From Gordonia tangerina (GTDB lineage Bacteria; Actinomycetota; Actinomycetes; Mycobacteriales; Mycobacteriaceae), in the NCBI RefSeq assembly GCF_021556435.1, contig NZ_JAKGCU010000008.1, forward strand, positions 1 to 64,000: DNA of 64,000 bases, read 5' to 3'. The notes under the pieces were generated by a model, which was given only the letters and a program-made list of their open reading frames with translations, ran no database searches and was not told the DNA's origin. The position numbers and the translations under genes are program-made. Shown in pieces: positions 12,044 through 41,762 of the stretch (positions within the stretch are counted from its first letter, which is position 1; each line of letters starts with the position of its first letter).

Positions 12044-12061
12044 TGTGTTGGCCCGGTCCCG

Positions 12062-13826: not shown

Positions 13827-13843
13827 GTCCAGCTCCTTCCAGG

Positions 13844-13962: not shown

Positions 13963-14379
13963 ATGGCCGACAAGGGACTGGGATATCGGGACATCGGGGG
14001 CAGGGGCGCCGACACGCGCGGACCCGAACGCCAGCGGTTCAAGAAGCTCGCGCAGGCGGCGTTGAACGCGGACATGACCGTCGATCAGGTCGAGGGGATT
14101 CTCGCCGACCTCGGGGAGACGCTCGTCGACATGAACAAGACCATCAGCGGTCTCGACGGGGCCATCGACACGATGGACGACACGCTGTCCAAGCTGTCGG
14201 TGACGCTTGATCAGGTCGACAGCACGGTGGCGTCGATGGGAGACATCGTCGCGCGGTTGGAACAGGTGGTCACCAGGGTGGAGGCGCTCGTAAGTATCGG
14301 CGAGGCCGCGCTGCGGCCGTTGGGCGCGATCGAGTCGGCGGGCCGCAGCGTCGCGTCGAGGCTCGGCATCGGAAGCTGA
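13963..14379 (+). CDS. small coiled-coil protein of unknown function
   Basis: This 138-residue protein has a charged N-terminus and then a long heptad-like helix from about residue 45 to 110 (VDQVEGILADLGETLVDMN, then ISGLDGAIDTMDDTLSKLS, then LDQVDSTVASMGDIVARLE). The spacing of hydrophobic residues and regular Asp/Thr suggests an extended coiled coil, as in many actinobacterial ATPase-like membrane-adjacent proteins. There is no signal peptide or transmembrane helix. Start is ATG 13963. It lies only 13 bp upstream of the lipase gene and is probably co-transcribed with it. No named family is recognised. Confidence 0.75.
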   Translation: MADKGLGYRDIGGRGADTRGPERQRFKKLAQAALNADMTVDQVEGILADLGETLVDMNKTISGLDGAIDTMDDTLSKLSVTLDQVDSTVASMGDIVARLEQVVTRVEALVSIGEAALRPLGAIESAGRSVASRLGIGS

Positions 14380-14392
14380 GACGGGAGTGGAT

Positions 14393-15226
14393 ATGCAGCG
14401 CGCGGAACACAATTTTGTCGGCGGCCATGGCGAGACGATCACCTACGACGTCATCGACCCGATCGATCAGCCGCGGGCGGTGGTCGTCATCGCGCACGGC
14501 CTCGGCGAACACGGTCGCCGCTACACCCACGTCGTTGATCGACTGGTGGCTGCGGGCAACCGGACCGTGGTGCCCGACCATCTGGGTCACGGTCGCTCGG
14601 GCGGCAAACGTCTGCGACTGCGGCGCTTTGCCGACTTCACCGACGATCTCGACCGCGTGATAGGCGAGACCGCCGTCGCGGACCGGCCGACCTTTCTGGT
14701 CGGGCACAGCATGGGTGGGTGTATCGCGCTGGACTATGCGCTCGACCACCAGGATCAACTGGCCGGGCTCGTGCTGTCCGGCGCGGCCGTGGTGCCGGGC
14801 GACGACATGTCGCCCATCGCGATGAAGCTGGCGCCGGTGCTCGCCCGGGTGGCCCCGGGGCTGCCCACCACGGCACTCGACGCGAGCGCCATTTCGCGTG
14901 ATCCGCAGGTGGTCGCCGACTACAACGCCGATCCGCTGGTCATCCGCAGCAAGATCCCGGCCGACCTCGGGGCCGCGATGCTCACCACCATGCAGTCCTT
15001 TCCACGCCGACTACCGCGACTGCAGCTGCCTCTGCTGGTCATGCACGGCGGTGACGACGTGCTGACCAGCCCGGCGGGCAGCGAACTGGTCGATCGCCTC
15101 GCCGGGTCGTCGGACAAGACGTTGACCATCTATGACGGCCTGTATCACGAGATCTTCAACGAACCCGAGCGCGACCGGGTGATCACCGACGTTGTCGACT
15201 GGCTGGTGGCGCACACCCCGGCCTGA
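14393..15226 (+). CDS. monoacylglycerol lipase-type alpha/beta hydrolase
   Basis: The ATG at 14393 is chosen over GTG 14387 because GGGAG (14383-14387) is then at proper spacing. The 277-residue product has HGLGEHGRRY forming the oxyanion region (35-44), the nucleophile elbow GHSMGG (Ser106), the acid in GGDDVL (Asp221/222) and the base His252 (YDGLYHEIFNE). This is the pattern of bacterial and mycobacterial (Rv0183-like) monoacylglycerol lipases, which split monoacylglycerols to glycerol and fatty acid. There is no signal peptide, though the mycobacterial enzyme is envelope-associated. It is convergent with the antigen-85-like gene. Confidence 0.9.
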   Translation: MQRAEHNFVGGHGETITYDVIDPIDQPRAVVVIAHGLGEHGRRYTHVVDRLVAAGNRTVVPDHLGHGRSGGKRLRLRRFADFTDDLDRVIGETAVADRPTFLVGHSMGGCIALDYALDHQDQLAGLVLSGAAVVPGDDMSPIAMKLAPVLARVAPGLPTTALDASAISRDPQVVADYNADPLVIRSKIPADLGAAMLTTMQSFPRRLPRLQLPLLVMHGGDDVLTSPAGSELVDRLAGSSDKTLTIYDGLYHEIFNEPERDRVITDVVDWLVAHTPA

Positions 15227-15244
15227 GCGTCATCTCAGTCCGGA

Positions 15245-16738
15245 TCAGGGCACCGGCGTCGTCGTCGGGATCGATGATTGTGCCGGGATCGGGACCGACG
15301 GGGTAGTACTCGGCGGGACCGTCGACTCACCGGTGTCGGCACCGGACTCGGAAGTCGGCGACTCCGTACTCGGCGTGGACGCGCTGGGCTGGGTGTCGTC
15401 GGCGGCCGAGGATGTCGACGACACCCCGGGCTCGGTGGCCGACGCCGACGTCGAATCGGTCGATGTGCTCGATGCCGCGGACTGTGCCGACGTGCTCGGG
15501 TCGGCCGATAGGTCGACGGTGTCGAGCACCGGCGTGGACTCAGCGGCGAGCAGGGCGGCCTGGGTGGCCTTGGTGGAACCCTCGGGGTCGGGGGTACCGG
15601 AGGCGTCGACCACCTGCACCTTCTCGGTGACCGGCGGGTTGTTGCGCAGCGCCTCGAGAACGTGGTCCTTGCCGTCGGCGAGACCGCGACCCCAGTTCTC
15701 CCAGGTGTGGCCCCCGTAGTTGGGCAGCGAGATCACCGATGCGCCGCTCTGTGCGGCCTGTAGTTGCATGAGGACCGTCGACACCGCGGAGAGCATCTCG
15801 AGGGCCATCGCACTGATCTGATCCTGCTGGGACAGTTTGGCCATCTCGCTCGAGGTGAGGAATCCGTTGCCGGACGAGATGATCAGCACCTGCCCGTTCT
15901 CGTTGAGTTTGTTGACGTTCTTCGACGGATCGTTGTCGGTCCACCGCTGACTACCGGGCGCGCCCCACATGTTGACGATGCCGTTGGTGTAGTTCGACAC
16001 GATTGTCTGGCTGGCGAACACGCCGAGCGCACCGATCGGGTTGTCGGTCTGGTAGTAACCCGACATCGCCTGCACGACCTTGAACTGGTCCGGATGACGC
16101 TCGGCGAGTGTCACCGCGGGGCCACCCGACATGGACAGGCCGACGATCGCGTTGTTGTTCTTGCTGACGCCGAAGTTCTCGGCGAGGTAGTCGGGGAGCT
16201 CCTCGGTGAGGAAGGTCTCCTGCGCGATGGTGGTGTTCTCCGCGCCGGCACCGCCTTCCCAATCGGTGTAGAACGACGACGCTCCGCCGACCGGCATCAC
16301 CAGGGTGGTGTCGGTGTTGCCGTCGTATACCTGGGCGGCCTGCACATCGTTGGTCCACGCGGAGCGATCCTCTTGCGCGCGCATGCCGTCGAGCAGGTAG
16401 ATACCCTGGTCGCTGCCGTTGGAGGCTCGGATCTGGACGGTGACGAACTTGTTCTGCGACTCCGACCAGACCTTGCAGTTCTGCACGTAATTGCCCGAAG
16501 AATCCCAGGTGCAGCCCTCACGTAACACCTCGGGATGTCCCGCCATGGCTGATGCCGTGTTGCCACCGGAGAACAGCGATCCCACGCCGAACAGGCCCAG
16601 GCTCAGCACCACCACGGCGGACAGGCCCGCGACCCGACGTCGGATACTGCGCCGGGGCGCCGGGGCAGTGGCGTCGGGCGCCATCCGCCACCCGTCGGCG
16701 ATCATGGACGAATCCGGCTGTTCCGGTTGGCTGGGCAT
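15245..16738 (-). CDS. antigen-85-type mycolyltransferase/esterase with long Ser/Thr-rich tail
   Basis: The ATG at 16738 (AGGAG five bases upstream) gives 497 residues. An N-terminal membrane/signal segment lies at ~36-66 (VAGLSAVVVLSLGLFGVGSL). The alpha/beta-hydrolase core (70-365) matches the Ag85/mycolyltransferase family: GIYLLDGMRAQEDRSAW, then GLSMSGG with nucleophile Ser204, and catalytic His344 in GGHTWENW. These enzymes transfer mycolates to trehalose or arabinogalactan outside the membrane. From ~370 the protein becomes a low-complexity Ser/Thr/Pro/Asp tail of about 125 residues, which Ag85A-C lack; this may anchor it in or extend it through the wall. It is one strong sign of a mycolic-acid bacterium. 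Confidence 0.9.
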   Translation of the reverse strand: MPSQPEQPDSSMIADGWRMAPDATAPAPRRSIRRRVAGLSAVVVLSLGLFGVGSLFSGGNTASAMAGHPEVLREGCTWDSSGNYVQNCKVWSESQNKFVTVQIRASNGSDQGIYLLDGMRAQEDRSAWTNDVQAAQVYDGNTDTTLVMPVGGASSFYTDWEGGAGAENTTIAQETFLTEELPDYLAENFGVSKNNNAIVGLSMSGGPAVTLAERHPDQFKVVQAMSGYYQTDNPIGALGVFASQTIVSNYTNGIVNMWGAPGSQRWTDNDPSKNVNKLNENGQVLIISSGNGFLTSSEMAKLSQQDQISAMALEMLSAVSTVLMQLQAAQSGASVISLPNYGGHTWENWGRGLADGKDHVLEALRNNPPVTEKVQVVDASGTPDPEGSTKATQAALLAAESTPVLDTVDLSADPSTSAQSAASSTSTDSTSASATEPGVSSTSSAADDTQPSASTPSTESPTSESGADTGESTVPPSTTPSVPIPAQSSIPTTTPVP

Positions 16739-17043
16739 GTGACTCCTGACATCTACGACTTCCCCCGATGCACGACGACTCACCTCGCGGCGGTCCTGGC
16801 GTGCGCTGCCCGGTCTGTCGTTGCCGGGCAGGCGGGCGTTACCGATCGTTGCATGCCCGTCGACTGCGCATCTGCTGCGAGGCAGCGACCACCGGGCGGG
16901 CAGCGGCAAGCGTTTCGCGATTGACCAGCGCACGCCTGTGCCAGGCGGGACACTGGGAGCGGCCGTACCCTTCGGGCGGCCGTGCCCCGGTGGCGCCGGA
17001 CCGGACGTCGTCGTGGGCGATCGCAACGACAGTGGGGATCCAG
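16739..17043. other. 305-bp divergent intergenic region
   Basis: This gap lies between the Ag85-like gene and the carotenoid oxygenase and must hold both promoters. I found no strong inverted repeat, RNA gene or extra reading frame with a ribosome site in it. Confidence 0.5.
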
Positions 17044-18453
17044 ATGTCCGCCGAGCAGACTGCACCAACTCGCCCCGCACCCGTGGACATGGCGCACCAC
17101 GCGCATCTGTCCGGTGTCTTCGCGCCGCAACGCCAAGAGGTCGACGTCAGCGATCTTTCGGTGTCCGGCGAGATCCCCGACGACCTGCAGGGCAGTTATC
17201 TGCGCAACGGACCCAATCCTCGGTTCGATCCGATCGGCTCCTACGTCTATCCGCTCGACGGCGACGCGATGGTGCACCGACTCGACATCGGCGACGGCGC
17301 CGCGCACTATCGCAACCGTTTCGTCCGCACACCGATGGTGGTGGCCGAGGAGAAGGCCGACCATGCCATCTGGTCGGGCCTGACCGACGGATACACGCCG
17401 CCCGCCTCCGAGGTGGGGCCAGAGCTCGCCGGGACGTTCCGTCAGCTGCCCGACATCAACGTCGTCGAACACGGTGGCCGGCTGCTCGCGATGGCCGAAT
17501 CCGATCAGCCCTACCGGCTCGACCCGGCCGATCTGGCCACCATCGCGCGCGACGACTGTGACGGCGCGATGGCGGTCGGCAGTACCGCGCACCCGAAACT
17601 CGACCCCGAGACCGGTGAGCTGGTGCTGTTCAACTACGTACTGGAGGCGCCGTACCTCACGTGGGCGGTGATCGGCCGCGACGGTCAGACACTCCGACCG
17701 CCGACACCGGTGGACGGTGTGGACCGACCCCTGATGATCCATGACATGGCCTTGACGTCGCGCTACATCGTGCTGTTCCTGTGCCCGTTGGTCTTCGACA
17801 TCGAGGCGCTGCTCAGTGGTGGCGGGTTGCTGCAGTGGCGACCGGACTCCGGTACCCGCATCGCGCTGATCCCGCGGGACGGTTCCGCGATCGGTTGGAT
17901 CGACGCCGAGCCGATGTGGGTATGGCACTTCGCGAATGGGTTCGACACGCCGGGCGCGGACACGGTGACCGTCGACTACGTCGAGTGGACCTACCCGGGT
18001 GGCTTCGCCGACATGCCGACTCCGGCGACCTCCGCTCTGGTTCGGGCGGTACTCGATCCGGCCCGCGGCACCATCGTCCGGACCACCATGGGCGCCAGTG
18101 TGAACGTCGAGTTCCCACGAGTCGACGACCGGATGCTCACCCGGTCACATGCGCAGGTGGCGACGGTCGGCAAGAGTGACGGCGATTCCGGCGACCTCGA
18201 CAGCCTTTGGTTTCACGACCTCTCCTCCGGCAGCGAGTCCTGTTGGCGCCCAGGGGTGGCGATCGGCGAGCCCATCTATCTGCCCGGGACCGAGCACGAC
18301 TACTGGGGCGCGTTCGGCACCGATCCGGCAGACATGTCGTCGCACTTCTACATCCTGCCCGCCGACGATCCGGCCGCCGGTCCGCTCGCGACCGTGCACA
18401 TGCCGATCAGGGTGCCGGCCGGGCTGCACGGGGCGTGGCTGCCCGGAACGTGA
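17044..18453 (+). CDS. carotenoid oxygenase (RPE65/CCD family)
   Basis: This 469-residue non-haem iron dioxygenase cleaves conjugated double bonds of carotenoids, stilbenes or related phenylpropenes. The four iron-binding histidines are in the expected seven-bladed-propeller positions: His183 (STAHPKLD), His233 (LMIHDMALT), His295 (VWHFANGF) and His ~462 (AGLHGAWLPG). The N-terminal GSYLRNGPNPRFDP motif is typical. Start is ATG 17044, preceded by GGGGA. The neighbourhood has no carotenoid biosynthesis gene, so the substrate may be external. Confidence 0.93.
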   Translation: MSAEQTAPTRPAPVDMAHHAHLSGVFAPQRQEVDVSDLSVSGEIPDDLQGSYLRNGPNPRFDPIGSYVYPLDGDAMVHRLDIGDGAAHYRNRFVRTPMVVAEEKADHAIWSGLTDGYTPPASEVGPELAGTFRQLPDINVVEHGGRLLAMAESDQPYRLDPADLATIARDDCDGAMAVGSTAHPKLDPETGELVLFNYVLEAPYLTWAVIGRDGQTLRPPTPVDGVDRPLMIHDMALTSRYIVLFLCPLVFDIEALLSGGGLLQWRPDSGTRIALIPRDGSAIGWIDAEPMWVWHFANGFDTPGADTVTVDYVEWTYPGGFADMPTPATSALVRAVLDPARGTIVRTTMGASVNVEFPRVDDRMLTRSHAQVATVGKSDGDSGDLDSLWFHDLSSGSESCWRPGVAIGEPIYLPGTEHDYWGAFGTDPADMSSHFYILPADDPAAGPLATVHMPIRVPAGLHGAWLPGT

Positions 18454-18475
18454 CGCCGAGACGACCCGAGACGCA

Positions 18476-18514
18476 CGACGACCGCCCTCGCAGGTGACAC
18501 GAGAACGGTCGTCG
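18476..18514. terminator. two-step hairpin between convergent genes
   Basis: CGACGACCG (18476-18484) pairs with CGGTCGTCG (18506-18514). Inside it CTCG (18487-18490) pairs with CGAG (18500-18503), separated by a small symmetric internal loop. It lies between the carotenoid oxygenase and aldehyde dehydrogenase stops and would serve both. There is no T-tract. Confidence 0.6.
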
Positions 18515-18559
18515 GGAGAGGAGAGCCCGGGTCGTGAGAGGCGGACCCGAGCAGGTGCG

Positions 18560-19984
18560 TCAGGCGTCGTAGCCGAGTAGCGACTTCACCTCGAGGAACT
18601 CGTCGAAGGCGTAGTCGCCCCACTCACGGCCGTTGCCGCTCTGCTTGTAGCCGCCGAACGGCGCCACCGGATCGAGTTGTGCGCCGTTGAGTGAGATGGA
18701 ACCGGCGCGGATGCGTGAGCCCACCTTGCGTACCTCGTCGACGTCCTTGCCGGACACATAGCCGGCCAGTCCGTACTCGGTGTCGTTGGCGATCTCGATC
18801 GCATTGTCGAGCGAGTCGTAGCCGATCATCACCAGCACCGGGCCGAAGATCTCGGTGCGTGCGATCTCCATGTCGTTGGTGACCTCGGAGAACACGGTGG
18901 GGCGGACGTAGTAGCCGGTGGGCAGGTCGTCGGGGCGTCCCGGCCCGCCGAACACCACCTTGGCACCCTCGGCTACACCGCGGTCGATGAGTCCCTGGAT
19001 CTTGGTGAACTGCGGCTCGGACACCACCGGACCCAACCGGACGTCACCGCTCGGGTCGCCGACGGTGAGGGTGGCCTCGACCGACTTCGCCGCCTCCTCG
19101 GCCTCGGCCATCCGGGACGAGGGGACCAGCATTCGGGTGGGTGCGTTGCAGGACTGGCCGGAGTTCATCATCATCGCTGCGACACCGCCGGCAACGTTGG
19201 CGGCGAAATCTTCGTCGTCGAGGATGATGTTCGGGCTCTTGCCGCCGAGTTCCTGGGCCACGCGCTTGACGGTCGGTGCGGCGTTCTTGGCCACCTCGAT
19301 GCCGGCGCGGGTGCTACCGGTGAACGAGACCATGTCGATCCCCGGGTGCGCGGCCAGTGCGGTGCCGACGCCCGGGCCGTCGCCGTTGACAAGGTTGAAC
19401 ACGCCGGCGGGAACGCCTGCGGCATCGAAGATCTCGGCGACGATCGCGGCACTGAACGGGGCCACCTCTGACGGCTTGAGCACCATGGTGCAGCCGGTCG
19501 CGAGCGCCGGGGCCACCTTGCACATGACCTGGTTGAGCGGCCAGTTCCACGGGGTGATGAAGCCGCACACGCCAATCGGCTCCTTGACGATCCGCGAGGT
19601 CCCGCGATCCTCACTGAAGCTGAAGGTGGGTAGCTGGGCGGCCGCGGTCATCAAATGCGCCAGTCCGATCGGTACCTGGACGTTGTTGGCCAGGCCGCTG
19701 GGCGCGCCCATCTCCTCGGTGACTGCCGCGGCGAGATCGGGCATCCGCTTCTGGTACTCGGCGACGACGGCGTTGAGGATGGTGACCCGTTCGTCCACCG
19801 ACGTTTGGCTCCAGGTCACAAACGCCTTGCGGGCGGCGTCGACGGCCTTGTCGACGTCGGCGGCGGTGCCCAGGGCGACGTGGCCGGCGGCCTTCTCGGT
19901 GGCCGGATTGATCACGTCGATGAGGTTGAGCTCGGCGGGCTCGGCCCATGAACCGTCGATGTAGAACCTGGTGATCTCGCGCAT
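18560..19984 (-). CDS. aldehyde dehydrogenase (NAD(P)-dependent)
   Basis: This 474-residue enzyme oxidises aldehydes to acids. It has the general-base motif QELGGKSP (Glu near 245), the catalytic cysteine in [11 protein letters not shown] (near 279), the Rossmann contact [19 protein letters not shown], and the EIFGPV and [13 protein letters not shown] motifs near the end. Start is ATG 19984 with GGAGGT about six bases upstream; the frame continues upstream for another ~1.4 kb but only as antisense to the next two genes. The motif set fits the broad-substrate group of actinobacterial ALDHs. It is divergent from a small monooxygenase-type gene. Confidence 0.93.
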
Positions 19985-20143
19985 GTAGTACCTCCGACTC
20001 GACACGTGTTGTCTCCACCACACTATGCCGCCTCCGGGTATCGCCGACAAGGCTTCCGGGAAACGGTGGTTGTCAGATATATCCGTCTCTGATTGAGACG
20101 GCGACGAGGTGGTGGACAGGGCTGGGATCATTACAGTGGGAGC

Positions 20144-20464
20144 ATGATCTTCATCGTGGCAAAGTGGCCCATCAAGCCCGAATTCGCCGATCAATGGCCT
20201 GATCTCGTACAGAGTTTTACCGAGGCCACCCGCGCCGAGCCGGGCAATAGGTTCTTCGAGTGGGCGCGCAGTCTCGACGATCCGAACACCTACGTGCTCA
20301 CCGAGGCGTTCGACGATGACGCCGCCGAGGCGCATGTGAACAGCTCGCACTTCCAGGTCGCGACGACCGAGTTGCCGAAGTATCTGCAGCGCACGCCCGA
20401 CATCATCAACGTCACGCTCGATCAGGACGGCTGGTCGGAGCTGGGGGAGATGTCGGTGGACTGA
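20144..20464 (+). CDS. antibiotic-biosynthesis-monooxygenase (ABM) domain protein
   Basis: The ATG at 20144, preceded by GGGAG, gives 106 residues. It reads MIFIVAKWPIKPEFADQW and continues with RAEPGNRFFEWARS and AFDDDAAEAHVNSSHFQ. This is the ABM ferredoxin-like dimer fold used by small quinol or haem monooxygenases and by stress proteins such as YgiN. The conserved strand-helix layout and HxxSxHF motif are present. It is a single-gene unit divergent from the aldehyde dehydrogenase. The substrate is unknown. Confidence 0.85.
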   Translation: MIFIVAKWPIKPEFADQWPDLVQSFTEATRAEPGNRFFEWARSLDDPNTYVLTEAFDDDAAEAHVNSSHFQVATTELPKYLQRTPDIINVTLDQDGWSELGEMSVD

Positions 20465-20590
20465 TCCCGTCTGCCGCCGATACGGCGCGGAGGTCACAAG
20501 CGGGGACGGTGGCGCCCCACAATTGGTGGTTGTGGGCACACAAGGTCGGGCCCTCTGCCGGAGGACGCGCGATTCCTCGACAGTGGAGCC

Positions 20591-21727
20591 ATGACCGCCA
20601 CGCTCGAGCGCACCGGAGTTGTCCGTCGTCGTCTCCTTCCCGATCTCGACCATCCGCGTCAGGTGTTCGAGCACCTGACGCCGAACTGGTTCGCTGCGGT
20701 GATGGGCACCGGGATCGTCGCGAACGCGGCGATCGTGCTGCCGGTGCAGTCGGCGATCATCACCGCGTTCGCGACCGCGATCTGGCTGCTCGCGTCGGTG
20801 CTGCTCGTCGCGATCAGCGCCGCGTTCGCCGTGCATTGGCGTCGCCACGGCGAGACCGCGCGCCGGTATGCCACCGACCCGGTGATGTCGCAGTTCTACG
20901 GTGCGTTGCCGATGGCTCTGCTCACCGTCGGCGCGGGCACCCTGCATCTCGGTGAGCCGATCCTGGGCGGCGCGGTCGCACTGTCGATCAGTGGCGTGCT
21001 GTGGGCAGCCGGCACCGCAATCGGCGTGGCGACCGCGGTCTGGGTGCCGTTCGCGATGATGACCGCCGAGCAGAACTCCGAACACGCGGCCCTGCCCGCC
21101 TGGCTGATGCCGGTGGTGCCCCCGATGGTGTCGGCGTCCACGGGCGCCGCACTGGTGGCCTACGTTCCGGCTGGACAGCTGCGACTGACGATGCTGGCCG
21201 GCTGTTATGCACTGTTCGGCATGAGTTTGATCCTCGGATTGATGACCATGACGTTGATCTATGCCCGACTGCTCCGCGGTGGGGTGCCGGTGTCGCGGTC
21301 GGCCCCGACGATCTGGATCACGCTCGGCATGGTCGGCCAGTCGATCACCGCCGCCAACCTCCTCGCAGTCCAGTCGCATCTGGTGTTCACCGGTGAGCAC
21401 GCACCGATCGCGGTCGGGCTGACCGTGTTCGGCATCGTTTACGGGTTGGTGATGGGTGGCTTCGGCATCGCCATGTTCACACTCGCCGTGGCCGTCACCG
21501 TACGAACTGTGCGCCGCGGGCTGCCGTTTGCGCTGACCTGGTGGAGCTTCACCTTTCCCGTCGGCACCTGTGTGACGGGCCTGTGCGCGTTGGGGTTCGC
21601 CCTGGACTCCACGCCGATTCGCGATCTGGGTGCCGCGCTCTACGTCGTTCTGCTCGCGGCCTGGGTGACCGTGGCCGCCCGGACCGTACGGGGTGCGATA
21701 GGTGGGCGCGTCTTCTTGCCTGCGTGA
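20591..21727 (+). CDS. TDT/SLAC1-family transporter (tellurite-resistance/dicarboxylate type)
   Basis: This 378-residue protein has ten predicted membrane helices beginning at LTPNWFAAVMGTGIVANAA, the signature start of the TDT (TehA/Mae1/SLAC1) family. Members move C4-dicarboxylates, sulfite or anions. The loop EHAALPAWLMPVVPPMVSAS and the later PFALTWWSFTFPVGT (helix 9) are further family marks. Start is ATG 20591. The gene is convergent with an MFS gene with 18 bp between the stops. Specificity cannot be resolved here. Confidence 0.88.
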   Translation: MTATLERTGVVRRRLLPDLDHPRQVFEHLTPNWFAAVMGTGIVANAAIVLPVQSAIITAFATAIWLLASVLLVAISAAFAVHWRRHGETARRYATDPVMSQFYGALPMALLTVGAGTLHLGEPILGGAVALSISGVLWAAGTAIGVATAVWVPFAMMTAEQNSEHAALPAWLMPVVPPMVSASTGAALVAYVPAGQLRLTMLAGCYALFGMSLILGLMTMTLIYARLLRGGVPVSRSAPTIWITLGMVGQSITAANLLAVQSHLVFTGEHAPIAVGLTVFGIVYGLVMGGFGIAMFTLAVAVTVRTVRRGLPFALTWWSFTFPVGTCVTGLCALGFALDSTPIRDLGAALYVVLLAAWVTVAARTVRGAIGGRVFLPA

Positions 21728-21745
21728 CGCTGCGTCGCGAGCCGG

Positions 21746-22903
21746 TCAGACGCGTCGGCGCAGGCGCAGGGCACGGGCGAGCGACGCCACTGCGGCGGCG
21801 GCCGCCAGGACGACCAGCGGGGCGACGACACCGGTCGAGGGCCGAATGCTGGTGAGTAGCACCGGCAATCCGAACCCCAGGTAGCAGGCGACATAGAACA
21901 TCCCGGTCACCGCACCCCGGTGCTCCGACGGTGTCATCGTCTCGACATCCATCAGTCCGTCGCGCAGACACAGACCGTAGGCAAGACCCAACACGATCGC
22001 GGTGATCACGAACAGAGCCATACTCGGGTGCGCGCCTCCCGCGGCTGCGAGCAGGAAGCCTGCGGCTGCCAGCGCTGCCCCTACGACCCCGGCCGACGGG
22101 CCGCTGTGCAGTCGGCGCACCACGAACTGGATGATCACTCCCGACCCCAGACTCAACGCGGCCGCCAGGCCGGGCACCCACGCGCCGTCGTAGCGGTCGG
22201 CGATGCGCTCGGCCATCACCACGACGGCGACGGTCACCGACGAGAACACCCACAGCGCCATCGGCACCGACCAGGACAACGCGGCACCCACAGATCGTCG
22301 CCCTGGATCGTCGACGGATGCGCCGTGCGCGGTGGGTGCCGGGGTCGCGGGCGTGAGTGCCACTGCCGCCGCGGCCACGGCGATCGACGCGATCCCGGAC
22401 ACCGCGAACGGCATCTCGAGTCGATGCGGGACGAACTCGGCGAGCAGACCGGTGATGACGGGGCCGAGGGCGAAGCCGGTGGTCAGGATGGCCCCTGCCA
22501 GCGTCGCTCCGGATCGGCCGCGCAGGTCCGCAGCCCAGGCGGTGCCGGCGCTGATGGTGAGTCCGGCCCCGAGCCCGACGACGAGGCGACCGACGAGCAC
22601 TCCGGCCTCCTCGTGCCAGACGATCATCATCAGATTTCCGATCCCGGCCAGGACCGCGCCGGTCAACACCACCGGCCGCCGGCCGGTCCGATCCGACAGC
22701 GTGCCGCCGCCGAACAGGCCCGGCAGCAGCCCGAGTGCGTAGATGCCGAACGCGCCGGTGAGCACAGTTGAGGACAATCCCTTGTCGACCCGCAGGACCG
22801 GGATCATCGACGCGAAGTGATTGGCGCCCCATCCAGTGGTGAACAGCACCAGCAGAACCGCGGGGAGGGCAAAGCGTCGTGTGCCGATCTCGTCGATGTT
22901 CAT
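21746..22903 (-). CDS. MFS transporter
   Basis: The ATG at 22903 gives 385 residues and twelve hydrophobic segments. An upstream in-frame start at 22969 would overlap the divergent esterase and is less likely. The motif-A equivalent GGGTLSDRTGRRPV lies between TM2 and TM3. The second half has shorter loops (EHRRGAVTGMFYVACYLGFGLP). Family relatives export drugs or small metabolites. No substrate can be named. It is divergent from the HSL-type esterase, which leaves a 64-bp shared promoter region. Confidence 0.88.
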   Translation of the reverse strand: MNIDEIGTRRFALPAVLLVLFTTGWGANHFASMIPVLRVDKGLSSTVLTGAFGIYALGLLPGLFGGGTLSDRTGRRPVVLTGAVLAGIGNLMMIVWHEEAGVLVGRLVVGLGAGLTISAGTAWAADLRGRSGATLAGAILTTGFALGPVITGLLAEFVPHRLEMPFAVSGIASIAVAAAAVALTPATPAPTAHGASVDDPGRRSVGAALSWSVPMALWVFSSVTVAVVVMAERIADRYDGAWVPGLAAALSLGSGVIIQFVVRRLHSGPSAGVVGAALAAAGFLLAAAGGAHPSMALFVITAIVLGLAYGLCLRDGLMDVETMTPSEHRGAVTGMFYVACYLGFGLPVLLTSIRPSTGVVAPLVVLAAAAAVASLARALRLRRRV

Positions 22904-22967
22904 CGGGCGAGATTCTGCCGCGTTATACCTGGATTCAACCAATCGCAGCGAAAGGTGAGCGTCGACC

Positions 22968-23876
22968 ATGACCGCACAGCACGAGTTTCATCCCGACCTG
23001 GCGCGTTCGGCACGTGTGTTGCCGCGCGGGCTCGCCGGCCCGCGAAGCCTGCGGATCGTCCGCTTCCTACAGGGCTCGCTCGCCCGGCTGCAGCGCGATC
23101 GCGGTGTCGAGGTGAGGTCACTGCCCTCCGGCGGCGGGGTGCGCATCTTCCGGCCTACCGGTGGGCGTGCGGTGGCGCCGGCCCTGGTGTGGATCCACGG
23201 CGGTGGATTCGTGCTCGGCGAGGCCCGGCAGGACGACGACCTGTGCCGGCGATTGTGCGCCGAAATCGGCGCCGTCGTGATCTCGGTGGACTATCGATTG
23301 GCGCCCGAAAATCCGTTCCCGGCGGCACTCGACGACTGCCACGAGGCCCTGCAGCTCGCCTACGAGACCGATGGTGTGGATGCGTCCCGGGTGGCGATCG
23401 GCGGCGCGAGTGCCGGCGGTGGTTTGGCCGCCCAGGTGGCGTTGCGGGTCAAAGAACGTCGCGAGAGCGCACCGGTCCTGCAGCTGCTGGCCTACCCGAT
23501 GCTCGACGACCGCACCGGCGCCGCCGGACCGTCGCCGATCGAGAACCGATTCAGGATGTGGAACAGCAGTTCCAACCGGTTCGGGTGGGGGGCTTACCTG
23601 GGCGGCGCCGCGCCCGAGATCGTCGCGCCGGCTCGTCGCGACGATCTCACCGGACTTGCACCGGCGTGGATCGGCGTCGGCGAACTCGACCTCTTCCATG
23701 ATGAAGATGTGGCCTACGCGAAGCGCCTACGCGAGTCCGGGGTGGACTGCGCGCTGGAGGTGATCCCCGGCGCCTATCACGCCTTCGACCTGATCCAGAC
23801 GAACGCGCCGGTGTCCAAGGAGTTCTTCCGGATGCAGACGGCGGCGCTCCGCGCGGCATTCGCCGCATCGGCGTGA
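22968..23876 (+). CDS. alpha/beta hydrolase, hormone-sensitive-lipase group esterase
   Basis: This 302-residue esterase has the HSL oxyanion motif HGGGF (about 77-81), then SVDYRLAPENPFPAAL, nucleophile elbow GGASAGGG, acid in GELDLFHDED and base in PGAYHAF. It should hydrolyse short-chain esters in the cytoplasm or at the membrane; no signal peptide is present. Start is ATG 22968. The MFS gene on the other strand shares its promoter region, which may pair uptake or export with ester hydrolysis. Confidence 0.92.
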   Translation: MTAQHEFHPDLARSARVLPRGLAGPRSLRIVRFLQGSLARLQRDRGVEVRSLPSGGGVRIFRPTGGRAVAPALVWIHGGGFVLGEARQDDDLCRRLCAEIGAVVISVDYRLAPENPFPAALDDCHEALQLAYETDGVDASRVAIGGASAGGGLAAQVALRVKERRESAPVLQLLAYPMLDDRTGAAGPSPIENRFRMWNSSSNRFGWGAYLGGAAPEIVAPARRDDLTGLAPAWIGVGELDLFHDEDVAYAKRLRESGVDCALEVIPGAYHAFDLIQTNAPVSKEFFRMQTAALRAAFAASA

Positions 23877-34549: not shown

Positions 34550-36148
34550 CTACGGGTGTCGGCAGCGATAGTCGCGGTAGCGAAAGATCCGGTGGACGCG
34601 CGGGGTCGCCGCGCAGCGGGGCTCGAGCACCGCCGGTGCCGGTGCGAGGACGGCAGGTACCGACTCGTTCCAGCGCACCCGCCGCACGTCGAGTGGGCGC
34701 TGTTCTCCGTTGACTGGGCGTCGTTTCCCGTCGACTGGGCGCTGTTTCCCGTTGACTGGGCGTCGTTTTCCGTCGGGTGGGCTTTGGTGGCCTGGGCTTT
34801 CGTCGTCGACTGTGTGTTCGGCGACGTGGTGGTGTGCGAGCGGGTCGACCTCGGTGGGGTTGTGTGCAGACCCCACGTTGTCGGGGCAGTCGGCTGACGG
34901 TCCGCGCACGTCGGGGGTCGGTGCATCGCATCGCGCGGTCCACGTTGTTGATTCGCTACCGTCGCCGGGGTCGTCGTCGGATGTCGGATCAGCGGCGGTG
35001 TCGGTGGAAGTCGACTGTGCGGCAGAAGGTTCGACCGTAGTGGTGTCGGGTTCGGTGGGCTCATCGGTGCCGGCGGAGTCCGTGCTCTCGTCGACGGGCG
35101 TGGCCGTGGTCTCGGGTGTGACCGCGTTGTCGTCGACCGCCACCGACGGGGTCGCGTCGGCGGCCCGCTTGCGGGTGCGGGCGGTGCAGGTGTCGTAGCC
35201 GCATGCGCATTCCAGGCGCACGTCGGGGACGCTGTGGATTTCGGCGAGGGCGATGGCGCGTCGGTGTCCGACGCGGCGGGGGTCGCGGCGGCAGACGCGT
35301 TCGGCGATGAGGTCGGCGATGCGGTGTTGGAGGTGGATGGCGTGTTCGGCGCTCAGGCAGGCCGACATTTGCATGTGGCCGAAGGCTTCTTTGGCGAAGG
35401 TGACGTTCTGGAAGGCTTGGGCGACGTCTTCGCGGGCTTGGGCGTGCGCGTCGGGGTCCAGGCTGATCAGTGCGCTGTCGAGTTCGTCGCGCAGCACGGT
35501 GTCGGGGGTGGGCCGGTAGGCCAGTTCCAGGGCGATGTCTTCGAAATCGACGGGCGCTTCGGCCGGGTCCTGGGGTGTCTCGTCGCGGCCGTCCGGGTCG
35601 CTGTCGCCGTCAACGCTCGCGTCACCGTCACCGTCGGCGCACGCGTCTGCGTCTGGGGTGGGTTCCTCGACTGGGGTGTCGGGTCGGGGACCGAGCGCTT
35701 GGTCGAGGATGTCGTTGAGGCGTGGTCGCAGGTTGCCTTTGGGGGCGGTCTGCGAGCTGGTGGCCAGTTCGGTGACGCGGTGGGTGCTGAAGTCGCCGGC
35801 GAGGTAGGCCAACCGGATTTTGGGCAGGTCGGCCAGCATGTGTGCCAGTGAGGCCCATTCGCCGGCTTTGCCGCGGGTGATGCCCAGTTGCAGGGAGATC
35901 TCGCCGATGGCGTATTTGTGGGCTTTGGTGTGGGAGCCGGAGTTGGCGTGTGGGCCGTGGCTGTTCAGGCGGTCGTTGTAGGCGCGGTCGCCGATCATGC
36001 CGGCACCGAGCACGGTGCGGGCCTCGGATTGGCGGCTCAAGCGCAGCGTGTCGCGCACTCCGTCGGCGTAGGCCATCTGGTCGGCGACACCATCGAGCGG
36101 CGCCGACAACACGGTGTCATCGGCGTCGTGATCGGTGAAGGAGAACAC
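34550..36148 (-). pseudogene. DUF222 (REP13E12-type) protein truncated at the start of its HNH domain
   Basis: The 532-residue frame has the DUF222 domain in its first ~330 residues (YAIGEISLQLGITRGKAGEWA, THRVTELAT, the CACGYDTC region and VCRRDPRRVGHRRAIALAEIH). It then has a long low-complexity part with four 7-residue repeats of the type PVNGKQR. Family members normally go on to FVRARDRFCRHPGC... and an HNH nuclease motif. Here the protein ends RIFRYRDYRCRHP and stops (TAG). So the HNH zinc-finger nuclease part is absent and the nuclease function is probably lost. GTG start at 36148. Related REP13E12 genes are known prophage integration sites in M. tuberculosis; this one lies about 220 bp from the tRNA fragment at 36372. 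Confidence 0.8.
34694..34777. repeat. four 21-bp tandem repeats inside the DUF222 gene
   Basis: Units of TGGGCG(C/T)(T/C)GTTTCCCGT(T/C)GAC type start at 34694, 34715, 34736 and 34757. Each encodes seven residues on the reverse strand, of the form G-K/E-R/Q-R-P-V-N/D. Units 1 and 3, and 2 and 4, are most alike. Confidence 0.8.
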
Positions 36149-36371
36149 CAGACGACCCTTCTATGAGACGGCGGCGGGCAACGAATCAGCAACCACAATC
36201 AGGCTAACGATGGGGTCCGACAACAACGATCCACCAGCATCGGAGGATGCGGCACCGGCGCGGCGTCATCGAACAGATCCAGAGTATCGACGGGGTACGA
36301 CAATAGTTGGAGCAATGGTCGTCGGCTCCGTTGCCGCCCGATCGAACAATCGTGGATCGGACGCCAACACA
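36149..36371. other. 223-bp gap upstream of the DUF222 gene
   Basis: This stretch holds the promoter side of the DUF222 frame. A forward frame beginning at 36135 runs through it into the tRNA fragment but has no supported product. I see nothing else definite. Confidence 0.4.
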
Positions 36372-36415
36372 GTGCCCCCAGTCGGACTCGAACCGACACT
36401 GGGCGGATCTTAAGT
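36372..36415 (-). repeat. 44-bp duplicate of tRNA 3' half (probable attachment site)
   Basis: These 44 bp match 38999-39042 at 43 of 44 positions (GATCTTAAGT here, GATTTTAAGT there). The match covers the tRNA from the anticodon loop to its 3' end and stops sharply at both sides. It lies in the same orientation, downstream of the tRNA's 3' end. This is what a displaced tRNA end looks like after site-specific integration by a tyrosine recombinase. Confidence 0.8.
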
Positions 36416-36734
36416 ACTTACGACCCGCTCGCGAGCGAACCGTCCGAACCTGCGACTTCGTCCCCGCATGGGCGCCATAAACTCTGTCTGGCAGCAGTTG
36501 TGCTGACGGCAGACGGTCTCCAGGGCATCTTAACCTCGATCGGTGGATCGAGGCTTAGGGCCGAAACCCCACCACACCAGGGGCTTACCCATACCTGGGG
36601 CCGTGCCCACGGTTACCAGCCGAAACTCAAACCAACATCTATGAAGGCTCGTTCATGAATTCTACGCCAGGGCCGAAGCGCCGCCGCTCGGTTGAAATCA
36701 GTGCACACCAACATAATTCACCCTACACGAGAAC
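36416..36734. other. unassigned DNA next to the att-like repeat
   Basis: No gene is visible in these ~320 bp. There is an 8-bp hairpin CCTCGATC-GGTG-GATCGAGG (36534-36553), a smaller one with CCAGG/CCTGG arms near 36577-36600, and a CGCTCGCGAGCG palindrome near 36426. The A+T content rises toward 36700. It may be an element end or a terminator-rich junction. Confidence 0.4.
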
Positions 36735-36995
36735 GTGTCAGGCTACGGCGCGGCTGCGCCGGTCTATCGCAATCCGGGGTGGCCCGGCGTGATACCGCTC
36801 CCACCGGGCGAAAAGTCACCACCGCCCGGTGGTTTCACCGGCCATTCGGGTGCTGACCCAACCGACGCCGACCTCGACGTCGTCGTCGACGATAACTGGA
36901 CTCCCGCGGTCACCATGGGGGTGCGACTGGTCAGTGTGCTCGACGACGACGCGCAACACATCGGGCAGGCCGCCTACATTCGTGGGCTGCTGTAG
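36735..36995 (+). pseudogene. 3' fragment of a DinB-like gene
   Basis: The last 44 codons (36861-36992) encode DLDVVVDDNWTPAVTMGV and then VRLVSVLDDDAQHIGQAAYI and RGLL. They align almost without change to residues 123-165 of the intact DinB-like protein at 9455-9955. The remaining upstream part does not resemble the family apart from a short SGYG, and two of the three metal-site histidines are gone. It is a truncated paralog or homolog. Confidence 0.8.
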
Positions 36996-37005
36996 GTGTC
37001 CGTAT

Positions 37006-37668
37006 TTAGGGCAGCACCCGGTTCACATCGCGCGAGATGATGAAACCGCTGCGCCCATAACAGGTCATGCCCGCCGTAGTTGAGGTACATGAGTTGCCAC
37101 GCACCATGATCGTCTGGCCGTAGGCGAGGGTGCGTGGACTCGGCGCGGTGAAGATGCCCTGAGAGGTGCAGAACTGCGTGACTTTGTCACCGTCGATGCG
37201 AACGGCATACGAATGGTTGGCCGTGTTGCGGCAGGTGACTCCCGAAGAAGCCGGCACCGACGACGCCGCCTGGCAGCCGAAGGGCGGGTTGTCGTCGCCG
37301 TCGACGCGGATGGCGCACCACACGTTGCCGCTGGGGGAGCGGAAGAAGTACTGCCCCGGTGCCGTTTCGAAATCGCGGGCGTCGACATTGGCGTCGTCGC
37401 GCGATGGTTTTGTCGGTGTGCCGGTGACGGGACGGTGTTGCTGCTGGTCGGTACGTGTTGTCCCCGGTGCCAACTTGGTCGAGTCGGCAGACGTCGGAGC
37501 CACCGGAGCGCCGGATGTAGCCGCCGTGTCGGGCGCGCCGGACTCGGTAACGGTGACCGTGTGCGCTGGTTCAGCCGCGGGGGTGGACTGACTTGTGTTG
37601 CAGGCTGCGACGGCCGCAATGAGCGGCGTCAGAACAACGACTGCGGCAAAAACTCTGCGATGGTGCAT
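37006..37668 (-). CDS. lipoprotein with DUF6636-like Cys-rich domain
   Basis: This 220-residue protein has a lipoprotein signal (FAAVVVLTPLIAAVAAC, lipidated Cys23), a Thr/Pro/Ala linker to about residue 95, and a compact C-terminal domain with six cysteines (SPSGNVWCAI, PFGCQAAS, GVTCRNTA, TQFCTSQG, NSCTSTTAGMTCYG). The SPSGNVWCAI start and cysteine spacing are like the DUF6636 domain of secreted actinobacterial proteins. Start is ATG 37668. It is the only apparently intact gene in the tRNA-bounded segment. Its role is unknown; disulfides and a lipid anchor put it outside the membrane. Confidence 0.75.
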   Translation of the reverse strand: MHHRRVFAAVVVLTPLIAAVAACNTSQSTPAAEPAHTVTVTESGAPDTAATSGAPVAPTSADSTKLAPGTTRTDQQQHRPVTGTPTKPSRDDANVDARDFETAPGQYFFRSPSGNVWCAIRVDGDDNPPFGCQAASSVPASSGVTCRNTANHSYAVRIDGDKVTQFCTSQGIFTAPSPRTLAYGQTIMVRGNSCTSTTAGMTCYGRSGFIISRDVNRVLP

Positions 37669-37752
37669 GAGTGCCTCCGGTGCGGGATGGTTGGGTCGCT
37701 CATGATGGATATCGACGCGCGAGGCGGTGGCGTTATACCCGAATCGGGTCTG

Positions 37753-38348
37753 TCATTCGAGTGGTCGACGCGGGGTGTTCAGTCGGGTGTCACCGACGGC
37801 CTGCACGGGGTGGGAAACCGTGCGTAGCACTCGCACGAACTCGTCGCCGGCATCGTCGAGAGCGCCGTCGTTGTGGATGACGAAGTCGCCACTGTGCTCG
37901 GGTGCCGGGTCGGGTCGTGCCAAGCGGTCGGTGACGTCGCGCCGATTCGCGTCCGCGGCCCTGCAGGCGCGCTCGGCGCACCGGGTCGGACACGCTCACC
38001 CGCACGCGGCCAGCCGTGCATAGCGTGTCGCCAGCTCCTCGAGCACACCGCGTGACACGTTGGCGACGACGGTGCGTCCGGTCCGCACGGCATCGTCGAC
38101 GTGTGTGGGATGTCGTAGCGCAAGCCGTGAGCCGTCCAGCGGACCGCGAACTCGCCACGCGCACACCGTGCTTCAAATTCCGCGACGCTCACCGGTTGAT
38201 GCACCTCACCGTCACCGGGAGGGCGGGTGATCACTCTGCGCACTAACGTGGCGTCGCAACGGGCCTTGGCGTAGTCGATGAGCGAGTCCTTGCCGACGCC
38301 GCTGGCGCCCACGACAGCTACGAACGCTCCCGGCCCCAGCGCACTCAC
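37753..38348 (-). pseudogene. phnN: phnN (ribose 1,5-bisphosphate phosphokinase) with frameshifts
   Basis: The first ~80 codons are in one frame: VAVVGASGVGKDSLIDYA with Walker A, RRVITRPPGDGEVHQPVS, then RWTAHGLRYDIPH. The homology then shifts to another frame (DDAVRTGRTVVANVSRGV and LEELATRYARLA), then to a third (VRVSVSDPVRRARLQGRGRE), and finally to a fourth stretch (DVTDRLARPDPAPEHSGDFV and IHNDGALDDAGDE) ending at TGA 37753. At least three indels are needed to restore one product. PhnN makes PRPP from the ribosyl bisphosphate released by the C-P lyase pathway. Its GTG start overlaps the phnM stop by 4 bp, as in a phn operon. Confidence 0.85.
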
Positions 38349-38677
38349 GAGACTCGGATGCCTTCGCGATAGACCGCTCGAACGACCGGTACCTGCCGTC
38401 CGCGCAGGTGGCTGGGTGTCGTCGACACCGTATGCGCCGCAATACGAACCAAGTCGGCGCGCTTACCGACGGCAATCTGCCCTCTGTCGTGCAAGCCGAC
38501 TGCTGGAGCCGGGTTCCCGCTGACCAGTCGGGCGCCGTCGGTCAGCTGAAGCACGCCGTCGGCAGCCAATTGAAACACCGCTTGCAGTGGGCTCGACGGC
38601 ACATAGTCGGACGACAGAATGTGCAGCAGTCCGCGGTCGAGAAGGTCGGTGGCGGCCACGCTGCCCGACTGGCTTCC
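38345..38677 (-). pseudogene. phnM: phnM 3' fragment (alkylphosphonate pathway hydrolase)
   Basis: About 105 C-terminal codons remain: SVAATDLLDRGLLHILSSDY, then VPSSPLQAVFQLAADG, NPAPAVGLHDRGQIAVGKRA and DLVRIAAHTVS. These fit the end of PhnM, the amidohydrolase-fold RPnTP hydrolase of C-P lyase metabolism. Upstream of 38677 the frame loses resemblance and the N-terminal metal ligands are missing. The fragment keeps its 4-bp overlap with phnN. Confidence 0.8.
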
Positions 38678-38998
38678 GGGCTGCCTGCTCGCGCCGGTGC
38701 GCGATGCGATCGTCCATCTTCTCCGCGCGGATCTGGAGCGATCGCATCTAAGGTGTCGAAGGCTGGTTTCTGACGCACAGCTTCCGACACGCCGGTTACG
38801 CAGGAACGTCGTACGCCGCGGCGGTGAGGTTGAGCACCTGGCGCTCCTTCTTTGTCGGCGGAGAAGCCACTTCACCAGATGCTGCCACGCGCCACCGACA
38901 ATCCACGGCGTAAACCGCTTACGCGCCGGGGTAGGACCGCGGTCGCGGAGGCTGAGCGCCCTGGCCAGGCTCATAGTCCTTCTACCTGCGCTGATGCG
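38678..38998. other. unassigned DNA between phnM fragment and tRNA
   Basis: These 320 bp should correspond to the 5' part of phnM if the operon were whole, but no frame resembles it. No integrase or excisionase frame is visible. Confidence 0.4.
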
Positions 38999-38999
38999 G

Positions 39000-39073
39000 T
39001 GCCCCCAGTCGGACTCGAACCGACACTGGGCGGATTTTAAGTCCGCTGCCTCTGCCAATTGGGCTATGGGGGC
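39000..39073 (-). tRNA. tRNA with TAA anticodon (Leu by anticodon)
   Basis: Read on the minus strand the cloverleaf is complete. The acceptor is GCCCCCA/TGGGGGC, the D arm starts GCCC, the anticodon arm is GCGGA-CTTAAAA-TCCGC, and the T arm is GTCGG-TTCGAGT-CCGAC with discriminator A. The loop CTTAAAA gives anticodon TAA, which reads UUA (Leu). CCA is not encoded (the DNA continues CCG). The variable region is only five bases (CCAGT), whereas Leu tRNAs normally have a long one, so the charging identity deserves a check. Its 3' half is duplicated at 36372-36415. Confidence 0.88.
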
Positions 39074-39494: not shown

Positions 39495-41762
39495 ATGTTG
39501 GCAGACAACCGGAAACAGCGGCGGGCGCGGGAGCGGAGCGAAGCGCGTAAGTCGCGTCGGGTGCAAAAGGCGGTGGTGGCCCTGAGCGCCGGTATCGCGG
39601 TGGGCGTCGGTGCTGCGGGAGCCGCTGGTGCCGAGACGATCGGGTCGCAGGCGATCGCCGAGAACAGCTACACAACTGTTGAGAATCTGATCGTCATCGC
39701 CGACAACCTCGGGCGTACCCAGGTTGCCATGCTGGCACCGGCCGCATCAGTGTTGCCCGATGGCTGGGTTCCGGTCGTCACCAGCGAGTACTCGACCAGC
39801 ACCGAGCAACTCAACTTCCTGGAGGCGCTCACCCAGGGTGGGCAGCTGTTGCTCGCCGTGCCCGACACCAGTCACGTCCCCGGCGCGTCTACTGCGCTGT
39901 CGGGGATCAGCCCGCAGGTGGCGCAGGCGTTGTCGGCGCTGCCGCTGGCCGACACGCTCGGCAGCGGGGCGACGGTGTACTCGAAGATGGGAACGGCGCT
40001 GGTCGGACTGAACCTCGTCAACCTCGACACGGGTATCCAAAACGGCCTCGCCGACGCGGCGGAGCTCCTCGGCGGCAACAAAGTCGACCAGGATGCCGGT
40101 CAGCTCACCGGAATTCCGTCGATCGACGACGCGCTGGGCTTCTGGACCGGTAGCCGCACCACCTCGAACTGGACGGGAACCGTCAACTGGTTGGGCGCCA
40201 GCGGTACCACCTGGATCAGCCAGGACCAGGTGAGGATGGACGGAATCACCTCCGAACAGCTCACGGCGTTGTTCGGGCAGAATTTGAATCAGCCGGATGC
40301 GCTGGTGGTCTCCAACGGATCGAAGGAACTGGTCAAGGTCGGTGAAACCTGCAGGTGGGGCATCTGTATACCCAAGTACGACTACGTGTGGATTGGCGAG
40401 ACCGACGGCGACGGTAACCAGGTGCACACCACCATCTACGATCCGAACGCAGGAGTCGCTGACGCGTTGTCGGCTCTCGACGGCATCGATGTCGGCGGAT
40501 TCACCATCACCCAGCGTGAGGCCGGCGGCTCCTACACCGGAGCGCTCGGCGGCCAGGCCGGATGGTTGGCCGCCGCGACCCAGGTGGTGGTGCCCGGGAG
40601 CAGCGGAGCCGACGACTATGTCGCGACGGTCCCCGTCTACGCCGCAGGCATCAGCCTGCCCGACGGCCTGTTCACCACCGGCATGCAGCTCAGCCCCGGC
40701 CTGGTGACGACCAGCGGACAGTCGGTGGACTCGGTTCTCGGGAGTAGCACCTCCACCTGGTCACTTCCCGCGTTGGGAGTCGGTGCCCAACAGACGTCCC
40801 TGCTGGAGTCCTCGCACCTCGGACCCGATGGTTTCTCCTACAACTCGGGATGGACGATCGCGGCCATCACTCTCGGTGATGTGACGGTGCCGGTGGTGTA
40901 CTCGCTGGGTTCGGTCAACGTCGGTCCCAACGGGTTCGGCGTGAGCGGGCCGTCGATCATGGGTGTGGGTCTACCGGGATTCCAAGTGGGGTCCGCCCCC
41001 TCTGGCTCCGTATCGTCGACCATCCCAGATGCCATCTCCCAACTGCTCGGCGACGTTCCCACCTCGGTCATCACTCTCACACCGGAGATGCTGTTCCAGC
41101 TGGCACAGATCGAAGATCCGACCGGCGGAGTCCTGAGCGACCCGATCGGCACGCTCGAGTCGGTACTCAGCCCGCTGTTCACCAAGTACGTGACCCCGAC
41201 GGCCACCGAGGTGTCTCAGGCCATCGCCGACGCCGCCACCGAGGCCGTCAACCAGGGCTCGAGCGCCATCGCCGCAGCCTCCGCAAAGGCCGCCGACGTC
41301 ACCTCCGAGCTCGCTGACGCCACAGAGAGTGCCAGTCAATTGGCGGTGACTCCGCAGGACGTTGTCGAACCGAGCGCGGTCGAGACCGCCGTACCGTCGA
41401 GCGTGGGTCGCCATGCCTTGCCCGACGAACGGTACGCACCGACCGACACAACGGATGCCTCGACGACATACGTCGGGCGCCACCGTGCCGATGATGGGGA
41501 GTCGTCAGACGCCGCGAACGATGACGCCACCACCGATGTCGGTTCTGAGGGGACGGGCTCGGATGCCGGCACCGTCACCGCCGGGTCCGACACGGGCAAC
41601 TCGGATAGCGGCAGCGCAGACACCGCCGGCGCAGACGCCGCGGACGCAGGCAGCAGCAGCTCGGATACCGGCAGCTCCAGCGCTGCCGGCCCCGACGGCA
41701 GCGCGGACGTCGGAACCTCTGACAGCAGTGGCTCCGACAGCGGTGACGGTGCTGCCGCCTGA
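39495..41762 (+). CDS. large exported protein of unknown function with Asp/Ser-rich tail
   Basis: This 755-residue protein starts at ATG 39495 with GGAGGG upstream. A long basic head (RKQRRARERSEARKSRRVQK) precedes a signal helix (ALSAGIAVGVGAAGAAGAET), so cleavage is near residue 47. Residues ~48-560 are rich in Gly, Ser, Thr, Val and Leu with few charges and look like a beta-rich surface fold. The only cysteines visible are CRWGIC. An Ala-rich helical stretch follows (~565-620). Then comes a region with two GRH motifs (VGRHALPDERY and VGRHRADDGESS), and finally ~90 residues of almost only Asp, Ser, Ala, Gly and Thr. No known domain is recognised. The form suggests a wall-spanning surface protein. 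Confidence 0.8.
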   Translation: MLADNRKQRRARERSEARKSRRVQKAVVALSAGIAVGVGAAGAAGAETIGSQAIAENSYTTVENLIVIADNLGRTQVAMLAPAASVLPDGWVPVVTSEYSTSTEQLNFLEALTQGGQLLLAVPDTSHVPGASTALSGISPQVAQALSALPLADTLGSGATVYSKMGTALVGLNLVNLDTGIQNGLADAAELLGGNKVDQDAGQLTGIPSIDDALGFWTGSRTTSNWTGTVNWLGASGTTWISQDQVRMDGITSEQLTALFGQNLNQPDALVVSNGSKELVKVGETCRWGICIPKYDYVWIGETDGDGNQVHTTIYDPNAGVADALSALDGIDVGGFTITQREAGGSYTGALGGQAGWLAAATQVVVPGSSGADDYVATVPVYAAGISLPDGLFTTGMQLSPGLVTTSGQSVDSVLGSSTSTWSLPALGVGAQQTSLLESSHLGPDGFSYNSGWTIAAITLGDVTVPVVYSLGSVNVGPNGFGVSGPSIMGVGLPGFQVGSAPSGSVSSTIPDAISQLLGDVPTSVITLTPEMLFQLAQIEDPTGGVLSDPIGTLESVLSPLFTKYVTPTATEVSQAIADAATEAVNQGSSAIAAASAKAADVTSELADATESASQLAVTPQDVVEPSAVETAVPSSVGRHALPDERYAPTDTTDASTTYVGRHRADDGESSDAANDDATTDVGSEGTGSDAGTVTAGSDTGNSDSGSADTAGADAADAGSSSSDTGSSSAAGPDGSADVGTSDSSGSDSGDGAAA

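Follow-up and report, generated by a model that had tools for sequence, protein, structure and literature searches.

Phage Omega, of the cluster J mycobacteriophages, is described as having its attB in tRNA-Leu-CAA, with a common core of 44 bp (PMC3706429, PMC10865867). A second kind of described system, the cis-mobilizable element (CIME), is defined by what it keeps and what it has lost: attL and attR are retained, while the genes for integration and transfer are gone (PMC5704250). The tRNA fragments that integration leaves behind are reported as a known problem for annotation (PMC9897764).

The locus considered here lies in Gordonia tangerina, in bases 1–64,000 of contig C65 of a genome of 5.29 Mb (G000); this 64-kb stretch is called “the window” throughout. 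Near its middle, 2.6 kb of DNA are bounded by a leucine tRNA gene and by a displaced copy of the 3′ half of that gene. We read 36372–39042 as a scar left when a tyrosine-integrase element, which would since have lost its integrase and most or all of its phage genes, integrated site-specifically into the 3′ half of tRNA-Leu(TAA), and we put the probability of this reading at about 0.8.

The repeat pair at tRNA-Leu(TAA)

The two copies of the repeat, at 36372–36415 and 38999–39042, are identical at 43 of 44 positions, stand in the same orientation and are spaced 2,627 bp apart. The second belongs to the single tRNA gene of the window, a tRNA-Leu(TAA) on the minus strand at 38998–39073 (ARAGORN; Rfam RF00005 agrees with 61.1 bits), and the repeated part begins in the anticodon loop and extends to the 3′ end. 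In terms of the reading above, the intact gene would be the attachment gene, the core within it (minus strand) the attL side, and the displaced 3′ half at 36372–36415 (likewise minus) the attR core. A 44-bp repeat of this part of the tRNA, with one mismatch and unchanged orientation, had been read from the letters in the original prediction, and the repeat search, ARAGORN and Rfam all bear it out.

The sole mismatch, C at 36409 and T at 39036, falls on the base directly 3′ of the anticodon. On this strand the T (an A in the tRNA) is kept in 51 of 51 other Gordonia genomes that bear the motif, and the simplest cause of the change in the displaced copy would be drift in a sequence without function. 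The 44-bp repeat is beyond chance: its first 24 bp, allowed up to 6 mismatches, have no match in ten shuffled 64-kb windows, and in 1.08 Mb of real loci the matches outside tRNA genes stand at 6 mismatches, with the exception of one at 4 (in G028).

Leucine tRNAs are expected to have a long variable arm. The tRNA-Leu(TAA) of the window and the tRNA-Leu(CAA) located elsewhere in the same genome are 76–77 nt long by ARAGORN and lack such an arm.

Use of the site within and beyond the genus

tRNA-Leu(TAA) is a used attachment site in Gordonia. The core pattern, run with up to 3 mismatches over 59 Gordonia genomes, is present in 52 (the seven with no match are uninformative for the placement of copies), and the reversed pattern, which served as a control, gave 0 matches in the 59. 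Five genomes have two core matches; the pair in G020 consists of whole tRNAs on separate contigs, and the four others (the genome of the window, G012, G066, and G068) have a partial second copy, which in each case lies 3′ of the tRNA in the same orientation. The spacing falls from 16.1 kb (G012) and 15.2 kb (G068) to 6.1 kb (G066) and 2.6 kb (the window).

All three longer stretches carry an integrase or part of one. In G012, a 390-aa tyrosine integrase (phrog_1, E 2.7e-65) stops 35 bp short of the core, and a primase/helicase-type protein and a tape-measure protein of 1802 aa were found among the 10 ORFs scanned; the integrase beside the tRNA in G068 is 87% identical to that of G012. The 6.1 kb of G066 are a phage remnant with an ORF for the C-terminal part of an integrase (phrog_1, E 3.1e-28), the N-terminal part of which was seen by eye in another frame, together with a serine-recombinase-type ORF, an HNH endonuclease and part of a major head protein. 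G068 also forms an occupied/empty pair with G031: the 400 nt outside its displaced copy match the 400 nt 3′ of the G031 tRNA with a score of 709 out of at most 800, the next best of the 44 flanks compared reaches 33, and G031 has no second copy. The same 44 flanks yielded no empty counterpart of G000, G012, or G066 (best scores 32, 38, and 34).

The original prediction had placed the intact tRNA at one end of the segment and the copy where a displaced end should be, and had looked to close strains for a larger, integrase-bearing element bounded by these repeats; among other Gordonia genomes, both are seen in G012, G068, and G066. It had also named two observations that would count against an element, namely the same 2.6-kb content in relatives and copies of the repeat elsewhere as ordinary pseudogenes. 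The whole insert is found in no other genome of the 59 (five candidate places scored per genome), and at up to 3 mismatches partial copies stand only beside this tRNA, with none away from it in any of the 59. That the displaced copy is just such a tRNA pseudogene, or a chance duplication unrelated to integration, would fit the lack of an integrase on the contig, but its boundaries, orientation, and position follow the geometry of G012, G068, and G066, and together with the confinement of partial copies to this tRNA this makes the idea extremely improbable.

Beyond the genus, the core is found at 41 of 44 positions in the attP region of Rhodococcus phage REQ2, where the annotated integrase ends 35 bp from it, and a close match lies at the end of the M. 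abscessus prophage prophiGD02-2 and likewise of prophiGD90-1. It also occurs in 19 IMG/VR stretches, two of them from one contig. Within at most 1.7 kb on the 3′ side, several of the stretches being much shorter than that, seven of the 19 show some likeness to one of the integrases of G012, REQ2, and G066. It is strong in three (L122, L130, and L135); in L124 and L133 the match is short, and in L127 and L134 it lies on the opposite strand.

The arms, the contents, and the surroundings of the segment

G012, G068, and REQ2 share one type of attachment arm, in which each side of the core carries a TGTGACA/CGTGACA pair, at distances that barely differ among the three. The insert of the window has one such word, mid-insert, and none near the cores. 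The element-side arm that adjoins its tRNA (38885–38998), probably the remnant of an integrase-arm region, resembles that of the G066 remnant. This likeness was first noticed by eye and then scored against shuffles: the score is 44, the best of 200 shuffles reach 27–30, the next best arm at 93 core places (some fetched twice) has 27, and a single shuffled query reached 31 among all arms compared. An arm at a tRNA-Cys gene in G024 scores 40, with 200 shuffles at most 28. By blastn, the near arm is 75% identical to that of G066 over 61 columns (E 0.007) and 74% identical to that of G024 (E 0.30); the similarity is good over 38885–38943, about 60 bp, and weak over 38943–38998. The far arm, from 36416 on, scores 21 against G066 and 19 against G024, where shuffles reach 24 and 26, and a comparison of 220 bp from each end of the segment, at 10 of 11 bases, gave no arm repeats common to the two.

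The two arms seem not to belong together, the near one being G066-like and the far one not. This would be accounted for by two elements in tandem at the tRNA that a deletion fused, so that the far end now comes from one and the near end from the other. Decayed elements have been described as accumulating in tandem at att sites (PMC5704250). We nevertheless consider such a history unlikely in the window, where no third copy of the core was found.

A pattern built from the window and G066 arms occurs in three of the 59 genomes: in these two by construction, and in G024, where it abuts the tRNA-Cys. Its match in IMG/VR (L162) lies within a structural-looking gene and was taken as chance, and a longer arm pattern has no match there. 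At the G024 locus, a copy of 40 bp from the 3′ half of tRNA-Cys, with one mismatch, lies at a distance of 1,404 bp, and most of one ORF, which matches a phage family of unknown function (E 2.1e-17), is found between the copies (L166, C257, approximately 4845–6290). This contig has neither of the two PF00589 matches of G024 and continues for about 225 bp past the start of the second copy; a stretch of 241 bp around the arm has no phage match. Both arms of G024 are homologous to those of G066 (scores 216 and 148; shuffles at most 29 and 27), so that homologous attachment arms are found at two tRNA genes, tRNA-Leu in G066 and tRNA-Cys in G024. It is highly doubtful that the window segment and the 1.4-kb segment of G024 are more than passive leftovers and belong to a family of integrase-less mini-elements, which would share arms, use resident phage integrases in trans and switch their tRNA by a swap of the core.

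Next to the displaced copy, the segment begins with 445 bp (36416–36860; G+C 0.616) that match no known attachment arm, are not homologous to the arm of G066 or G024, and have no phage match among those listed. Their sole match at the level of the genus is a 30-bp motif, 36561–36590, found once each in G016 and G001 at 94% identity; an exact part of this motif is not found in IMG/VR. Then follow, on the plus strand, a mycothiol S-transferase fragment (MST, DinB fold; 36861–36995, NF047843 positions 118–161 of 161), which has lost the 5′ end and comprises the final 44 codons, and on the minus strand a lipoprotein-like ORF of 220 aa (DUF6636; 37006–37668, PF20341), a broken phnN (37779–38348, TIGR02322 positions 1–81 of 179, in one frame), and a 3′ fragment of phnM (38345–38716, TIGR02318 positions 277–375 of 376). 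The profile searches thus recover the broken phn genes, DinB fragment, and intact lipoprotein of the original prediction, the last being open throughout, and they agree with it on the missing integrase: none was found among the segment ORFs searched with Pfam and other profiles, and 0 of the 8 PF00589 matches of the genome are on C65. No phage gene was recognized in the segment pieces searched, and the matches listed for the segment in phage DNA (20 of 59 records) are to the core or to tRNA genes only; a plasmid search returned phnM and DinB-type pieces in 3 records.

By their sequence, these contents look like pieces of other Gordonia chromosomes. An intact MST is also present in the window at 9455–9955, which makes the DinB fragment a diverged (79%) and incomplete second copy; the full MST is single-copy in 14 of the 14 genomes tested, with the extra piece only in the genome of the window. 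Relatives of the lipoprotein are found in 12 of the 59 Gordonia genomes, its own included. The closest, 58–62% identical, lies in G. effusa near the MST and 5.6 kb from the same tRNA; the remaining Gordonia matches among those listed are at most 38% identical, and relatives outside the genus (Millisia, Tomitella, and Nocardia) are 34–44% identical. The phnN–phnM DNA (37819–38677) has a 70–71% match to G019, G082, and G067, away from their tRNA-Leu(TAA).

In G. effusa (L093, 7126–9228) the MST, one ORF, and the DUF6636 lipoprotein stand side by side, and the window keeps the end of the MST and the lipoprotein without this middle gene, which we take to be DsbA/FrnE-like. We also considered that the insert is simply the chromosome, shrunk between the MST and the tRNA; this was rejected, the intact MST at 9455–9955 standing among its usual neighbors, in the order of the relatives, within 7963–22969.

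The G. effusa arrangement bears on a further history, in which only the displaced copy, and perhaps 36416–36860, are element DNA, while the MST, lipoprotein, and phn pieces arrived later from a G. effusa-like donor by recombination anchored at the tRNA. We hold this to be possible, if on the unlikely side. It would agree with the MST, lipoprotein, and tRNA having the same order and orientation in G. effusa G064, within about 7 kb and with a single-copy MST, and with the tRNA of the window differing at one acceptor-stem base from the other fetched tRNAs that have an identical core. It would also agree with the 24 bp 3′ of the window tRNA, which are similar to the sequence flanking tRNA-Leu(TAA) in other Gordonia (the sum of the five best scores was reached in none of 200 shuffles, and in 18 of 200 when the same test was applied to the flank of the displaced copy). 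One of those five flanks, that of G066, is an occupied site, and the other four have no second copy. The 24 bp need not be a tRNA-Leu flank, because the neighboring 60 bp and the flank word ACCTGC are also found in the G024 element end at tRNA-Cys, and this speaks against a later arrival, though it weakens the idea only, since the last GATGCG of the flank is not common to G024. A related objection to plain insertion, that the 24 bp are the native 3′ flank of the tRNA, is weakened by the same G024 match and by the occupied state of G066.

The DNA around the segment differs among relatives as well. On the outer side stands an ORF of 532 aa (34550–36148, minus strand), which is not part of the element; it has copies at 87–92% in contigs C11 and C29 of the same genome and in G028, and with its upstream region it forms a unit resembling a dispersed repeat (34550–36303). 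It has no Pfam match, and presumably is of the DUF222/13E12 type. G028 is the most colinear relative, with approximately 78–87% identity in pieces over window 849–36303; the interval from the end of colinearity to its tRNA is taken up by 3.05 kb of other genes, with no second copy and no empty site. On the other side of the tRNA, 39495–41762, which contains a 755-aa ORF between the tRNA and 41886, has no counterpart beside the G028 tRNA, and similar DNA in G006, G035, and G023 is on contigs other than those of their tRNA-Leu(TAA). The locus is therefore variable on both sides of the tRNA, G028 differing at the insert site and lacking 39495–41762. By eye, the G028 stretch between flank and tRNA (L098, 15295–18346) holds an alpha/beta hydrolase and an NhaC-type antiporter, and a weak T-arm-like match (20 of 24) is seen at 16593.

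Probable origin of the segment and its nearest relatives

The original prediction, that the segment is what remains of a tRNA-integrated element, is supported by the integrase-bearing stretches that the same core bounds elsewhere, by the empty site of G031, and by the G066-like near arm. Against it stand the far arm, unrelated to G066 and G024, the chromosomal type of the contents, with no phage gene recognized in the pieces searched, and the shortness, about 60 bp, of the near-arm likeness with its modest blastn E-values. The other content of G028 at the site, and the lack of an empty counterpart for three of the four occupied genomes, count on the same side. On our preferred reading, an integration followed by decay, a tyrosine-integrase element would have recombined with the tRNA at the anticodon loop, the tRNA would have been rebuilt from the copy carried by the element, and the 3′ half of the host would have been pushed to 36372–36415. 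Its kinship with the G066 phage remnant would hold for the tRNA-proximal end at least. Later losses, presumably by deletion, would have taken the integrase along with most or all of the phage genes, leaving two cores, a partial near arm, and fragments of genes. As the far arm is unrecognizable and the pieces look chromosomal, it is with reserve that we infer the phn, MST, and lipoprotein pieces to be cargo of the element rather than later replacements.

Today the segment probably persists as an inert scar, next to a tRNA gene that looks intact; at most, an integrase acting in trans could still excise it. It could be seen as a genomic scar of an ordinary kind, here tied to relatives of the element in other species. 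The comparison indicates that elements have landed in tRNA-Leu(TAA) repeatedly in Gordonia, and it aligns stretches of 16, 15, 6, and 2.6 kb between the same two cores, which is useful for the study of how integrated elements decay and change their target; the general understanding of such elements is unchanged.

Among the known relatives, the G066 remnant has the same tRNA, the same core, and a similar tRNA-proximal arm; unlike the window, it retains integrase, serine-recombinase, and head-protein pieces, and the far arms of the two are unrelated. With REQ2 the window shares a nearly identical core (41 of 44), whereas the arms of that phage are of the G012 and G068 type. As in the published descriptions of Omega, a 44-bp core covers the 3′ half of a leucine tRNA, has one end in the anticodon loop, and would leave the tRNA rebuilt at attL. 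Those descriptions concern complete phages at tRNA-Leu-CAA, with an integrase and paired arms, whereas the window has tRNA-Leu-TAA and no integrase. As in the CIMEs described, the integration genes are gone, with no integrase on the contig; of the attL and attR that a CIME keeps, the segment has both cores (43 of 44) and one recognized arm. CIMEs descend from an ICE or IME, whereas G066, the nearest relative of the window, carries a piece of a phage head gene. Judged by its sequence, the segment is an att-bounded, integrase-less relic that resembles a CIME. Among the systems described in these sources, the closest published parallel is the 44-bp core of Omega at tRNA-Leu-CAA, and the closest named class is the CIME.
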